From positions 1-21,377 of IMG/VR virus record IMGVR_UViG_3300047557_001245: a DNA stretch of 21,377 bases. The stretch is one strand, 5' to 3'. This DNA comes from a virus. A program made the position numbers and the translations under genes. The stretch's first letter is position 1. Each line of letters begins with the position of its first letter. The notes below the pieces were generated by a model, which did not search any database, was not told the DNA's origin, and saw nothing but the letters and a program-made list of their open reading frames with translations. Below, in pieces: positions 15,290 through 20,764 of this stretch.

Positions 15290-15600
15290 TTCTTTTCCAA
15301 TACAAATACACGAGATGTGTTCTTGGTGTAGTACATCTGACCCTTGATCTTCCAAGACTTGTGATGACGTTGGGCGTAAGAGCGCAGTGCCTGTGACACC
15401 TTATCGCAATCTTCTGGTTTGCAAGAGAGGGATTTCCCTATGTCGAGATCCTTGAAGATGGAGTCGTACTTGTAGAACCGAGCAACACGTTTTTTAGGCT
15501 TGTCATTGGTGATACGCAAAGTGGAGATATCCACCTCTCTGACAGCCTTTTTGGTGAACGGGTTTTTCCCGGCAAATGTGGTCTGGATAACGTTGTTCAT
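15286..15600 (-). CDS. 104-aa basic phage protein, possible paralogue of the 73-aa gene
   Basis: A Lys-rich protein. The front (MNNVIQTTFAGKNPFTKKAV, REVDISTLRITNDKPKKRVA) is followed by a domain FKDLDIGKSLSCKPEDCDKV...ALRSYAQRHHK...VFVLEKK. That domain follows the same pattern as the protein at 13703-13924 (x-[ML]-[ED]-[VI]-G-[DK]-S, then a basic helix, then a final strand). A nucleic acid role is guessed from its charge. It overlaps neighbours by ATGA at both ends. Confidence 0.65.
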   Translation of the reverse strand: MNNVIQTTFAGKNPFTKKAVREVDISTLRITNDKPKKRVARFYKYDSIFKDLDIGKSLSCKPEDCDKVSQALRSYAQRHHKSWKIKGQMYYTKNTSRVFVLEKK

Positions 15601-16076
15601 TTTGTTTTTGACTTAGGCCATCCAAGTTTTGAAAGATCAGCAACTACGTTAGCAAGTGCTGGCAGGTTTTTTGTTGGTGCAGCTTCCGTTGGAAAATACT
15701 TTTCAAACTCAGGCAAACGGTCCATCAGGGCTTTGCGTGTAGTGCAGCTATCAATGGCATTTCTCAGTTTGTTATGAGCAGCGTAGATAGCGTCATCCTC
15801 ATCCTTGTACGGCTTTAGGATTGCATCCATCATTCCATCAGTAACATCGCCGACAACAACAATGCGTGAATCCCAGTTTCCGTTATAAGTTAAATCCCCC
15901 ACATGGTAGGTACGCAATGCGCCGGGAATTTCTTTAAACACCTTACGCACCATTGGACTCATGGCTTTGACAATAGTGGCTTGAATTTCTTCAAGGCGCT
16001 TGGTTTTGTCAGGTTTGGGTACGTCTGCCATGATGGCTTTGACGATGGCAAGTCGGTCGTATTTTGTAATTTTCAT
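15597..16076 (-). CDS. Nmad5-like (nucleotide modification-associated) protein
   Basis: A 159-aa protein. The N-terminal helix MKITKYDRLAIVKAIMADVP, the middle EIPGALRTYHVGDLTYNG and the C-terminal LPEFEKYFPTE followed by NLPALANVVADLSKLGWPK match the pattern of Nmad5-family proteins (nucleotide modification associated domain 5). The biochemistry of that family is not settled. ATG 16076 overlaps the stop of the 50-aa gene upstream (ATGA), which decides it against the in-frame ATG at 16106. If the assignment holds, the phage may have modified nucleotides or counter host modification-dependent defence. Confidence 0.65.
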   Translation of the reverse strand: MKITKYDRLAIVKAIMADVPKPDKTKRLEEIQATIVKAMSPMVRKVFKEIPGALRTYHVGDLTYNGNWDSRIVVVGDVTDGMMDAILKPYKDEDDAIYAAHNKLRNAIDSCTTRKALMDRLPEFEKYFPTEAAPTKNLPALANVVADLSKLGWPKSKTK

Positions 16077-16225
16077 GGCTTTGTCACCGGGGTTGCAAGA
16101 AGCCATTTATTGCCAAGGAATCGGATAGACCGTACCCACTGCTTGCAGTTATGACGCTGTATGTGTGTTGGGACACCATCGATGCAAAACAACTTTCGCA
16201 CCTTTTTCAATGCTTGAACATTCAT
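16073..16225 (-). CDS. 50-aa basic protein, first gene of the minus-strand operon
   Basis: The frame ATG 16225 to TGA 16073 gives a 50-aa Lys/Arg-rich protein (MNVQALKKVRKLFCIDGVPT, then HIQRHNCKQWVRSIRFLGNK). A strong AAGGAG lies 6 nt upstream, and the TGA overlaps the Nmad5-like start (ATGA). It has two Cys and several aromatic residues, so it could bind nucleic acid, but no family was recognised. It is the likely promoter-proximal gene of the operon. Confidence 0.75.
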   Translation of the reverse strand: MNVQALKKVRKLFCIDGVPTHIQRHNCKQWVRSIRFLGNKWLLATPVTKP

Positions 16226-16654: not shown

Positions 16655-16827
16655 TTTTTGACGCATTCTCAGAGTTTCCAAAGGCTGGTTTGACACCAGA
16701 CGAGCGTGGTGAGTACCATATGGGCTTATCAGAGATGGCACGGTTCAATGCTTATCAAGAGCAGCAACAACGTGACCGTGAATTTGAACAACGTCTTGAC
16801 CGTTGGATGACGGATGATTGGAACTAA
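16651..16827 (+). CDS. 58-aa acidic Gln/Glu-rich protein
   Basis: A helical protein (MIFDAFSEFPKAGLTPDERG, MGLSEMARFNAYQEQQQRDR and an acidic end). ATG 16651 overlaps the TGA of the 50-aa gene (ATGA). A longer frame begins at 16531 but would be entirely inside that gene, so it was rejected. Function is unknown. Confidence 0.6.
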   Translation: MIFDAFSEFPKAGLTPDERGEYHMGLSEMARFNAYQEQQQRDREFEQRLDRWMTDDWN

Positions 16828-16828
16828 T

Positions 16829-16981
16829 ATGCCTAAAGGTTTATATGCGGCAATTCATGCAAAGCGTGAGCGAATTGAGGCAGGGTCTAAGGAGAAGATG
16901 CGTAAGCCTGGAAGCAAAGGTGCGCCAACTGCTGCTGACTTTAAGAAGTCGGCTAAGACTGCCAAAAAAGTGAATAAGTGA
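16829..16981 (+). CDS. 50-aa highly basic protein (MPKGLY family-like)
   Basis: The 50-aa product (MPKGLYAAIHAKRERIEAGS, then KEKMRKPGSKGAPTAADFKK) carries a large Lys/Arg excess and is expected to bind nucleic acid or ribosomes. This short sequence type is one that recurs in phage genomes. It starts 1 nt after the previous stop. Its TGA supplies the TGn of an extended -10 promoter for the structured RNA that follows. Confidence 0.75.
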   Translation: MPKGLYAAIHAKRERIEAGSKEKMRKPGSKGAPTAADFKKSAKTAKKVNK

Positions 16982-16987
16982 TATAGT
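16959..16987 (+). promoter_or_regulatory. Promoter for the structured RNA
   Basis: -35 CTGCCA (16959-16964, four of six to TTGACA), 17-nt spacer, extended -10 TGA-TATAGT (16979-16987, hexamer five of six). The predicted start is about 16993-16995, exactly where the first stem begins. Confidence 0.65.
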
Positions 16988-16993
16988 TTGGCT

Positions 16994-17098
16994 AGAGGGT
17001 TTAGGTGTGGCGTGGTCGAGACGCTGATTACATCTAAGCCCTCACAGGCTGACCCTTGAAGGTCTGGTGCTCGACCCACCAGCTTTCAGGGGTTTTTT
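16994..17098 (+). ncRNA. Structured small RNA with two kissing hairpins
   Basis: About 105 nt. Hairpin 1 is a 14-bp outer stem, 16995-17008 with 17030-17043 (two G-U pairs). It continues past a 3' bulge (GATT) into GCGT/ACGC closing a 7-nt loop GGTCGAG at 17014-17020. A 9-nt linker follows. Hairpin 2 is 17053-17062 with 17083-17092 (10 bp, two G-U), one bulged T, then CTGGTG/CACCAG closing the 7-nt loop CTCGACC at 17070-17076, and T6. The two loops are perfect reverse complements (7 of 7), so a kissing interaction is likely. No family was recognised. It may be a free regulatory RNA or a leader that controls read-through to 17113. Confidence 0.75.
17053..17098 (+). terminator. Intrinsic terminator formed by hairpin 2
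   Basis: A 16-bp stem with one bulged T, a 7-nt loop, then six T (17093-17098). The loop can pair with hairpin 1. Only 4 nt separate the T run from GGAG of the next gene, so there is no room for a new promoter. Confidence 0.85.
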
Positions 17099-17112
17099 AT
17101 TTGGAGCTTCAA

Positions 17113-17298
17113 ATGATGTTTTTTCCCTCTGAGATTGAGACAACCGTTACAGCAGAACAAGGAAGAATTTGGATTGAACAAAGGCAAGAAGGACTAGAAA
17201 CTCAAACAATTGAGTTGACCGTTCATCAATTTAAGGAAATTTTTAACAGAGAAAAAATGATTATCAAGCAAGCTCAAGGGGACACTGATGAGCTTTGA
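17113..17298 (+). CDS. 61-aa small protein ahead of the initiator
   Basis: A 61-aa product (MMFFPSEIETTVTAEQGRIW, then QTIELTVHQFKEIFNREKMI). GGAG at 17103-17106 sits 6 nt before ATG 17113; an upstream frame start at 17056 would lie inside the terminator. The last 11 nt overlap the initiator gene. Function is unknown. Its mRNA must pass through the preceding terminator unless an unseen promoter overlaps the hairpin. Confidence 0.65.
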   Translation: MMFFPSEIETTVTAEQGRIWIEQRQEGLETQTIELTVHQFKEIFNREKMIIKQAQGDTDEL

Positions 17299-17905: not shown

Positions 17906-18237
17906 AAGGCCATGAACCCTTAATCAGGTTGAGGATGGCTGGTAAAGCTCCAGCCTTCATCAGCATTGAAGACCACAAATCACTGACAAGCCATGATTGG
18001 CACTTGTACAACGAAACCCCTTGCATCAATGTTGACGGTGATGAGCTGCACAACCTTGATCTACGGTTTTGTGTTGGCTTGATTGTCAACATCAGTAGTT
18101 TTTCAGAAAACAGAGCAAAAACACTGTTAAGCATTGCTAAACAAGCAAAAGCTAGGGTAATCACTAGTTGTGTACTGATTCCGAATGCTCCACACTGGAA
18201 ACAGACAGGTTGGTCAGAAATCTATACACAATCATGA
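17902..18237 (+). CDS. 111-aa phage protein between initiator and helicase
   Basis: A 111-aa protein (MKGHEPLIRLRMAGKAPAFI, then VDGDELHNLDLRFCVGLIVN, ENRAKTLLSIAKQAKARVIT). Alternating strands and helices suggest a compact alpha/beta fold. It is coupled on both sides by ATGA overlaps. Sitting between initiator and helicase, it occupies the place of a helicase loader such as lambda P, but no loader motif is visible, so this is only positional inference. Confidence 0.65.
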   Translation: MKGHEPLIRLRMAGKAPAFISIEDHKSLTSHDWHLYNETPCINVDGDELHNLDLRFCVGLIVNISSFSENRAKTLLSIAKQAKARVITSCVLIPNAPHWKQTGWSEIYTQS

Positions 18238-19217
18238 TAATCAACAACGACACGGTAAATTTTGCTCTTTACATGAAAGAGTCAGATGCCCAGGCTAAGG
18301 TCAAGAGTGCCTTTATCTATGCTGATGCACTGAAAAACAAACTGCGAATCAAGAAGACAGTCAACCCGATTGTTTTGCCTTGGATTGGACAGAAGGACAA
18401 CTTTGAGTTCCGCAAAGGTGAGGTGACTCTTTGGGCAGGACAGAACAGTTCTGGTAAGTCCTTGGTGACCTCTCAAATTTCTTTGTCCTTGATGGGTCAA
18501 GGTGAGAAGGTAGCTATTGCTTCTTTCGAGATGAAGCCTGTCACAACCTTACAACGTATGGCAAGGATGTGGATAGGGATGAACCCACTAGCACCTGAGT
18601 TCCAGACTGAGGAAGGCTTTAAATCCATTGACGACCTGTTTGACCAGTTCAGCTATTGGTCTGAGGACAAGCTTTGGCTGTACGACCAGATGGGTGCTGT
18701 ATCTCAGGACCTCATCATTGGCATGTGCAGGTACTGTGCAAAGGAGCTTGGCATTGGTCACATCTTCATTGATAACCTGGCAACTTGTGTCATGGGTGAA
18801 GACGACATGTCTGGTCAAAAGAACTTTGTTGCTGAGTTGATCAACATTGCTCGTGACTACAACATCCATGTTCACCTGATTCACCACTTGCGTAAACCAT
18901 CCAGCGAATATGCCATGCCAAACAAATACGACACTAAGGGATCTGGTGCGATTGTTGACCTTGTGGACAACGTATGGATGGTTTGGCGTAACAAGGAAAA
19001 AGAAGATGAAGTCAAAGACGTTGGAAGAGCATCACCAAAGTTCAACGATCCAGATCAGCTACTGTTATGCAGAAAGCAGCGTAACTATGAAGGTAGTGGA
19101 AATGGTGAACCCACGGTCAAGCTATGGTTCCTTCCTGATGCACAGACCTATGTTGAGAGACAAGGTGATGAACCAATGTTCTTTGTGAATTTCCCACATG
19201 TTAGGAGCCCATCATGA
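18234..19217 (+). CDS. DnaB/RecA-fold replicative helicase
   Basis: A 327-aa protein. Walker A is at 69-76 (GQNSSGKS), a catalytic-type Glu in ASFEMKP at about 97-102, and Walker B at about 176-181 (HIFIDN). The sensor HVHLIHHLRKP is at about 212-222 and the DnaB-like KGSGAIVDLVDNVWMVWRNK at about 235-254. The N-terminal primase-binding domain of DnaB is short or absent (first 65 residues), so it resembles the compact phage DnaB_C/AAA_25 helicases. It unwinds the fork, probably loaded by the initiator. ATG 18234 overlaps the previous stop and was preferred to an upstream in-frame start at 18168. Confidence 0.85.
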   Translation: MIINNDTVNFALYMKESDAQAKVKSAFIYADALKNKLRIKKTVNPIVLPWIGQKDNFEFRKGEVTLWAGQNSSGKSLVTSQISLSLMGQGEKVAIASFEMKPVTTLQRMARMWIGMNPLAPEFQTEEGFKSIDDLFDQFSYWSEDKLWLYDQMGAVSQDLIIGMCRYCAKELGIGHIFIDNLATCVMGEDDMSGQKNFVAELINIARDYNIHVHLIHHLRKPSSEYAMPNKYDTKGSGAIVDLVDNVWMVWRNKEKEDEVKDVGRASPKFNDPDQLLLCRKQRNYEGSGNGEPTVKLWFLPDAQTYVERQGDEPMFFVNFPHVRSPS

Positions 19218-19690
19218 ATCAAGAAAGACTTAAAGAGTTGCTAACTTACGATCCTGATACTGGTAACTTTTTTTGGAATGTTGATAAATCACGTGGCGCA
19301 AAAAAAGGCCAGAAATGTTCAATAGAAGCCACAAACACTGGTTATCTCAGAATCGGAATAGATGGGAAAAGATATTTGGCGCATCGGCTTGTGTGGCTGT
19401 ACGTGCATGGGCAGTTTCCAGACAATGATTTGGATCACATCAACCGCATAAGAACAGACAACAGAATTTGCAATTTAAGACAAGCCACAAGAGCCGAAAA
19501 CTTGCAAAACAAAAGTAACGTCAAAGGCGTTTACTGGCATAAACGTGCCAAGAAATGGCTGGCACAAATTAAGTTAAACAAAAAACATTTTTATCTTGGT
19601 CTTCATGAAAATTTTGAAGACGCAAGACAGGCTTACATATCTGCCGCATTGCAACTTCACACCCACAACCCCCACGTTAGATCAGGGTAA
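19214..19690 (+). CDS. HNH homing endonuclease with AP2 DNA-binding domain
   Basis: A 158-aa protein. The HNH nuclease core is at 56-100: AHRLVWLYVHGQFPDNDLDH with H57, then D74-H75, INRIRTDNRICNLR containing N83/N87, and ATRAENLQNK. An AP2 domain covers about 101-148 (KGVYWHKRAKKWLAQIKLNK, HFYLGLHENFEDARQAYISA). This is the usual free-standing phage homing nuclease layout; it cuts a specific allele lacking the insertion. TAGGAG precedes ATG and it overlaps the helicase stop by 4 nt. The intact helicase frame shows it has not interrupted the gene. Confidence 0.9.
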   Translation: MNQERLKELLTYDPDTGNFFWNVDKSRGAKKGQKCSIEATNTGYLRIGIDGKRYLAHRLVWLYVHGQFPDNDLDHINRIRTDNRICNLRQATRAENLQNKSNVKGVYWHKRAKKWLAQIKLNKKHFYLGLHENFEDARQAYISAALQLHTHNPHVRSG

Positions 19691-20118: not shown

Positions 20119-20210
20119 CATGGCCTTTCCCACCATTTCCAAACCCTAAAGACACGGGCAATAAAGTCCCTAAGTTCAATCCTGGTAACCACGAGGATGC
20201 ACCGCTATGA
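20115..20210 (+). CDS. 31-aa Pro-rich microprotein
   Basis: ATG 20115 to TGA 20210. The peptide (MTWPFPPFPNPKDTGNKVPK, then FNPGNHEDAPL) is Pro-rich and probably unstructured. AAGGAA is 6 nt ahead, and the frame is joined by ATGA overlaps to both neighbours, which fills the coding gap exactly. Function is unknown; a short linear motif binding a partner is possible. Confidence 0.6.
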   Translation: MTWPFPPFPNPKDTGNKVPKFNPGNHEDAPL

Positions 20211-20764
20211 CCAAAGACGAAGCATATTTCACTTACGCTCATGCAAGAAAAAGTGATGGCAGGATTTTTTACATTGGCAAAGGCAAGCACGGAAGAGCTA
20301 CTAGCAAGGCTGACCGAAATAATTATTGGCATAACACCGTTGCAAAGCATGGATTGGAAATCAACGTTCTTGCAAAGTGGAGATCGGAGCAAGAAGCATT
20401 TGAACATGAAAAATTTTTGATTTGGTGCTTTAGGGATATGGGGTTCGGTCTTGTAAATATGACTGATGGTGGAGAAGGATTGGCAAACCCATCGCAAGAA
20501 ACAAGATCAAAAATGTCACAAAACAATGCGATGAAGCGACCAGAAGTTGCGGCAAAAATATCTGCCGCAAGAAAAGGCAAGCCGTTATCAGATGAGCATT
20601 GCTTGAAACTATCAGAGGTTCAATCTGGAAGAAAGTTGTCTGAAGCGACGAGGCAAAAAATGCGTAATAGGTATTTGACTGCTATTCCAGAAGCAACAAA
20701 ACAAAAGATGGCAGATTCTGCAAAAAAAGCATGGGCAAAACGCAAGGAGAAAAACAATGGATAA
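20207..20764 (+). CDS. GIY-YIG family homing-type endonuclease with NUMOD3-like repeats
   Basis: A 185-aa protein. The N-terminal GIY-YIG-like domain has FTYAHARKSDGRIFYIGKGK (8-27, YIG at 22-24), R30, HNTVAKHGLEINVLAKW and the acidic FEHEKFLIWCF with E68 as the probable metal ligand. NMTDGGEG follows at 84-91. Residues about 95-165 carry NUMOD3-like repeats (PEVAAKISAARKGKPLSDEH, KLSEVQSGRKLSEATRQKMR) that bind DNA in homing enzymes. It probably spreads as a free-standing homing gene. GAGGAT precedes ATG. Confidence 0.8.
   Translation: MTKDEAYFTYAHARKSDGRIFYIGKGKHGRATSKADRNNYWHNTVAKHGLEINVLAKWRSEQEAFEHEKFLIWCFRDMGFGLVNMTDGGEGLANPSQETRSKMSQNNAMKRPEVAAKISAARKGKPLSDEHCLKLSEVQSGRKLSEATRQKMRNRYLTAIPEATKQKMADSAKKAWAKRKEKNNG

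Follow-up and report, generated by a model that had tools for sequence, protein, structure and literature searches.

Control elements at the start of early transcripts and ahead of replication genes have been described in several phages and plasmids. In lambda, the tR1/nutR region lies upstream of O and P, placing a terminator before replication genes inside the early operon; termination there is largely Rho-dependent, and the N protein acts with boxA/boxB. The P4 CI leader RNA and the ColE1 RNA I/RNA II pair are complementary RNA segments located upstream of replication functions. The int-alpA RNA (Rfam RF02996) is listed as an sRNA, and we know of no function assigned to it. In phage HK022, the put RNA is formed by two stem-loops, about 70 nt in all, near the start of the early transcript, with the stems joined almost directly (G35-A9 pair), and antitermination proceeds via the zinc-binding domain of the RNA polymerase beta' subunit (PMC9378689).

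The window analysed here is an entire IMG/VR virus record of 21,377 bases (record G000), and it carries an element of about 105 nt composed of two hairpins, the second being a predicted transcription stop. As in lambda tR1/nutR, a terminator stands ahead of replication genes in an early operon, but tR1/nutR has no promoter of its own and no kissing hairpins; in contrast to P4 CI and ColE1, where pairing occurs between molecules, both partners lie within one RNA. The features of the locus are the following.

16814..16981, plus strand: small basic ORF (phrog_16028) upstream of the element, co-directional, its stop codon overlapping the promoter
16959..16987, plus strand: promoter with a weak -35 (CTGCCA), a 17-nt spacer and an extended -10 (TGaTATAGT, 16979-16987)
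16995..17043, plus strand: hairpin 1, of 14 bp and then 5 bp, separated by a 4-nt bulge on one side (GATT, 17026-17029)
17014..17020, plus strand: loop 1, GGUCGAG (DNA GGTCGAG), pairing with loop 2 throughout the 48 distinct sequences
17044..17051, plus strand: linker ACAGGCUG, its GGCUG invariant in 48/48 distinct homologues
17051..17094, plus strand: hairpin 2, the terminator stem, of 12 + 6 bp with a 1-nt irregularity
17070..17076, plus strand: loop 2, CUCGACC (DNA CTCGACC), the exact reverse complement of loop 1
17093..17098, plus strand: U-tract (T6) of the intrinsic terminator, present in all 48 distinct homologues
17103..17106, plus strand: Shine-Dalgarno GGAG behind the U-tract
17113..17298, plus strand: first downstream gene, about 61 aa, its sequence resembling, by eye, the small ORFs that follow the element in L032, L038 and L057
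17288..17905, plus strand: replication initiation protein (HTH_36), downstream unit of the window
18168..19217, plus strand: DnaB-like helicase, downstream unit of the window

The initial annotation had described an extended -10 leading through two hairpins to T6, and this arrangement was recovered at the same place, with the TG of the extended -10 forming part of the TGA stop of the upstream ORF (16979-16981) and hairpin 1 predicted to begin at +1 or adjoining it. Its stem lengths of 14 and 16 bp were approximate, given the interrupted helices listed above (14+5 and 12+6 bp), while the two 7-nt loops are, as it had claimed, perfect reverse complements, a property shared by every distinct homologue. 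The fold is very stable (MFE -60.4 kcal/mol, z = -5.5), and none of 200 shuffles was equally stable. The Rfam 15 covariance models gave no family above cut-off in the window, in agreement with the earlier remark that no known RNA family was recognisable, and a search relaxed to E <= 10 returned solely GlsR4, a chance match. Elsewhere in the window, an HNH endonuclease with an AP2 domain, possibly of homing type, lies behind the helicase (19214-19690), an ORF with a GIY-YIG-like start (IFYIGKGKHGR, by eye only) occupies 20207-20764, and the minus strand encodes, at 15597-16106, a protein that has the C-terminal portion of Nmad5 (nucleotide modification associated domain).

BLAST found one relative, phage MW202710.1 (Manatee Spring), with 71.6% identity over the element and little outside it, whose loops (GGTTCAG and CTGAACC) differ from those of the window by two compensated changes; the short BLAST matches L010 and L011 (Vibrio, Manatee) are due to chance. 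Homologues were sought by scanning 2.9 million viral contigs for sequence patterns and checking the matches with a covariance model (R1), which gave 58 matches, 56 of them full-length and 48 distinct, the source collections being metagenomic and partly redundant. A pattern of promoter plus linker gave seven matches in viral contigs and a further scan added L015, a pattern of linker plus terminator enlarged the distinct set to 29, and one scan used the base of hairpin 1 alone, leaving out linker, loop and terminator. The true members from this last scan again carry GGCUGACC, a U-tract and complementary loops, and one more scan enlarged the set further. GGCUG is likewise invariant, and the U-tract present, in elements found with patterns that omit them. 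The pattern matches L012-L014, L016-L031, L035, L046, L053, L056, L101, L103 and L106 are non-members by folding and flanks, and L101, L103, L106 and L031 were excluded by the covariance model too. The element had no match in plasmids and E. coli, and one scan of genome contigs gave a single match, due to chance; the nearest plasmid-borne relative of the window helicase, in Bordetella, is 37% identical. Judged from the sequences, the two-hairpin element represents a genuine phage RNA family that had not been catalogued before.

The comparative data bear most strongly on the contact between the loops. Across the 48 distinct sequences, all 336 cells of the loop-loop helix (336/336) are Watson-Crick pairs with zero G-U, and 71 cells are changed on both sides, against 21.8 +/- 3.1 in shuffles. 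The alignment used (A3) was fitted to the model, but complementarity of the loops was not built in, because the loops are unpaired in the model behind it. Thirteen loop types occur, their ends conserved as G....AG / CU....C, and on a maximum-likelihood tree inferred with the loops left out there are at least 17 changes of loop type and at least 27 changes of kissing pairs, with no unpaired intermediate. The complementarity is exactly seven bases in every full member and is never extended by the closing pairs, slid registers are at most 46% paired, and the predicted energies of the loop duplexes range from -6.7 to -11.3 kcal/mol. A long alternative helix running through the loops is ruled out, as pairing ends at the loop edge in all members.

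The stems behave in a similar way. Among the first 29 sequences, standard pairs fill 98.5% of the cells in the 44-pair structure, and 21/44 pairs, stems and loops together, are changed on both sides. The helices of hairpin 1 are 97.8% and 99.3% paired, with both-side changes in 9/19 pairs, and hairpin 2 is 98.3% paired, with both-side changes in 8/18. Helix lengths are near constant, almost all gaps being confined to three places: the bulge of hairpin 1, the linker and the irregularity in hairpin 2. Both stems contain G-U pairs, some of them conserved (e.g. columns 16-54 and 67-110); selection is therefore placed at the RNA level, and a DNA cruciform is unlikely. The shuffles and the covariation rule out chance folding, bearing out the earlier judgement that such stems with matching loops were hard to explain by chance, and the homologues, found by pattern and checked with the covariance model, show compensatory changes in stems and loops alike. 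On this comparative evidence, the kissing contact is real and under selection, the covariation fitting intramolecular and dimer kissing alike; it reports selection on pairing and says nothing on what the RNA does. A closed triangle, with 14 bp on one side, 5+7+6 bp in line on the second, 12 bp on the third and flexible points between them, appears sterically plausible.

The flanks of the element place it as a leader. In 48/48 distinct homologues a -10 box (at least 4/6 match) lies 6-9 nt upstream of hairpin 1, and the match reaches at least 5/6 in 43/48, against 1.5% of random positions; the extended TG is present in half of the 48, and the -35 is often weak. A G+C-rich stem followed by a U-tract, the pattern of an intrinsic terminator, is found in 48/48 distinct members, including those from patterns without the U-tract. 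The upstream ORF is co-directional in 45/47 elements with enough upstream sequence. In 45/48 the next gene begins close by, with a clear Shine-Dalgarno and a start codon 12-17 nt past the element; in L099, L104 and L123, which make up the remainder, an ATG lies at a similar distance but was not accepted by the script. The gap between U-tract and ribosome site is too short for a promoter; the downstream gene would therefore be transcribed only through the element, and its transcription must pass a strong predicted terminator. This tight spacing may be due in part to the compactness of phage genomes. The element is not called a classical attenuator or riboswitch, because it has a single dominant fold with no alternative antiterminator (terminator base pair probability 0.96).

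The initial annotation had called the element a compact RNA gene, and it does have its own promoter and terminator, but it is not evidently a free RNA gene, the U-tract being followed at once, in nearly all cases, by a ribosome site. If the cassette were the gene of a trans-acting small RNA, with the downstream gene fed only by leaky readthrough, then the promoter, the hairpin-protected ends, the strong terminator and the one copy that a record carries as a rule would all be expected. Such a role is distinctly unlikely, however, given the co-directional coding gene 12-17 nt downstream in 45/48, the replacement by int-alpA RNAs seen in the corresponding slot (see below), and the engagement of both loops in kissing, which leaves GGCUG as the only conserved single-stranded seed. 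A decoy for a host factor, also proposed earlier, found no direct support.

The genes behind the element vary and include replication initiators of several families, HNH proteins, a helicase and small ORFs. Because the downstream genes differ, the element is regarded as a generic leader, and one specific to replication genes is ruled out. Two copies, with loop types differing within each record, are found in G005 and G035 (L100), most records having one. In L100 the two kissing elements (L100:3583-3693 and L100:1255-1363) differ in loop type and belong to one operon, at a distance of 2.3 kb, and the first of the pair stands before a gene that is helicase/methyltransferase-like by eye. In G005 (L015/L037; 75,987 bases) the two elements, again with different loops, are about 37 kb apart, and this contig may join two phage genomes.

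The diversity of loops raises the question of specificity between phages. A released RNA could kiss, in trans, the leader being transcribed from a like phage and alter its readthrough, so that loop types would define incompatibility groups in the manner of P4 immunity or ColE1 control. The 13 loop types with their conserved ends and the differing types in both two-copy records would suit such a scheme, but variation is about equal in the apical stem pairs and the loop pairs, with no sign of faster change in the loops, and two such records are too few; we consider both the pairing in trans and the incompatibility groups very unlikely.

Among close relatives of the helicase, the element occurs in only three of 26 loci besides the window. 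Where relatives without it could be inspected, the upstream gene is followed by TGATATAGT and then by a different structured RNA, which Rfam identifies as int-alpA (RF02996), above cut-off in L075 and L087, slightly below it in L078, L084 and L086, and weakest in L079. Among the 73 records searched, int-alpA-like matches occur in 26, only 7 of them above cut-off; in some phages that carry the kissing element an int-alpA-like RNA is present as well, at other positions than the element itself, and the RF02996 model had no match in the window record. The int-alpA RNA resembles the element in its slot, its promoter position, the classes of replication genes downstream and a U-rich stretch behind its outer stem, a likeness of analogy and not of membership, for it differs in having an outer stem that encloses two hairpins and conserved CUAG, GAAAAG and CCUG motifs, and the two families do not match one another.

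The aligned trio of L100, L130 and L132 is near-identical as far as the second slot's -10 and then diverges: behind the shared -10, L100 carries a kissing element and L130/L132 an int-alpA-like RNA, each with a different replication gene. As the gene changes too, the trio shows an exchange of RNA together with gene. The RNA type is judged by eye not to be tied to gene family, since similar DUF1376-like N-termini stand behind both types. The two kinds of RNA thus seem interchangeable as leaders of early phage genes, and of the roles first proposed, that of a cis-acting RNA is favoured by the leader position and this swap.

Several int-alpA-like RNAs (L005:11039-11104, L057:3031-3097, L087:4873-4938, L089:4842-4916 and others) show an apparent pseudoknot, in which bases lying directly past the U-rich stretch complement the second hairpin's loop. 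The mean longest match is 5.0 (15 distinct rows), against at most 4.4 in 2000 between-row swaps. To our knowledge this pseudoknot has not been annotated.

We lean towards a cis-acting promoter-leader-terminator module that throttles early genes, with readthrough set by the folded leader; the element probably gates how much is made of the early, often DNA-replication, gene behind it. RNA polymerase would initiate at the promoter, which overlaps the stop codon of the upstream ORF, and hairpin 1 would form at the extreme 5' end, followed by the invariant linker and hairpin 2. Loop 2 would then pair with loop 1, closing the RNA into a compact ring with bends at the two bulges, and hairpin 2 with its U-tract would terminate most transcripts as an RNA of about 105 nt, leaving the ribosome site behind the element to be reached by readthrough transcripts only. 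With two hairpins predicted to be stable and no competing antiterminator fold, regulation of this readthrough must come from something unseen. One option is that the kissing fold strains or delays the closing of the terminator base and so sets readthrough; another is that a putative reader, polymerase or antiterminator, recognises the ring and the GGCUG linker, as HK022 put is recognised. Against regulated throttling, constitutive partial termination alone would account for the anatomy.

The second option touches on a put-like antiterminator, in which the leader would bind polymerase, stay on the elongation complex and confer terminator resistance through the early operon. Like putL just behind PL in HK022 (PMC9378689), the element would put a pair of neighbouring hairpins at the start of an early transcript, and the invariant linker and the apparent immateriality of the downstream gene would fit. 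However, the element has about 105 nt against about 70, a 7-8 nt linker and, as hairpin 2, a canonical terminator with a conserved U-tract, whereas put is described as V-shaped, with almost no linker, no terminator and no reported loop-loop contact, and the element model had no match in the searched stretch of HK022. Antitermination of this kind is unlikely for the element, and by analogy put offers a possible mechanism, not membership.

With the element, phage gene control gains a well-supported RNA family whose tertiary contact is of a rare kind and is backed by covariation. It may tentatively represent a new class of control by RNA only, in which a 5' hairpin kisses the terminator loop, in a form exchangeable with int-alpA and possibly with loop types that determine specificity between phages. 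It also gives int-alpA a testable setting as an early-gene leader, and a 105-nt element with its own promoter and terminator is assayable in a single in vitro transcription.
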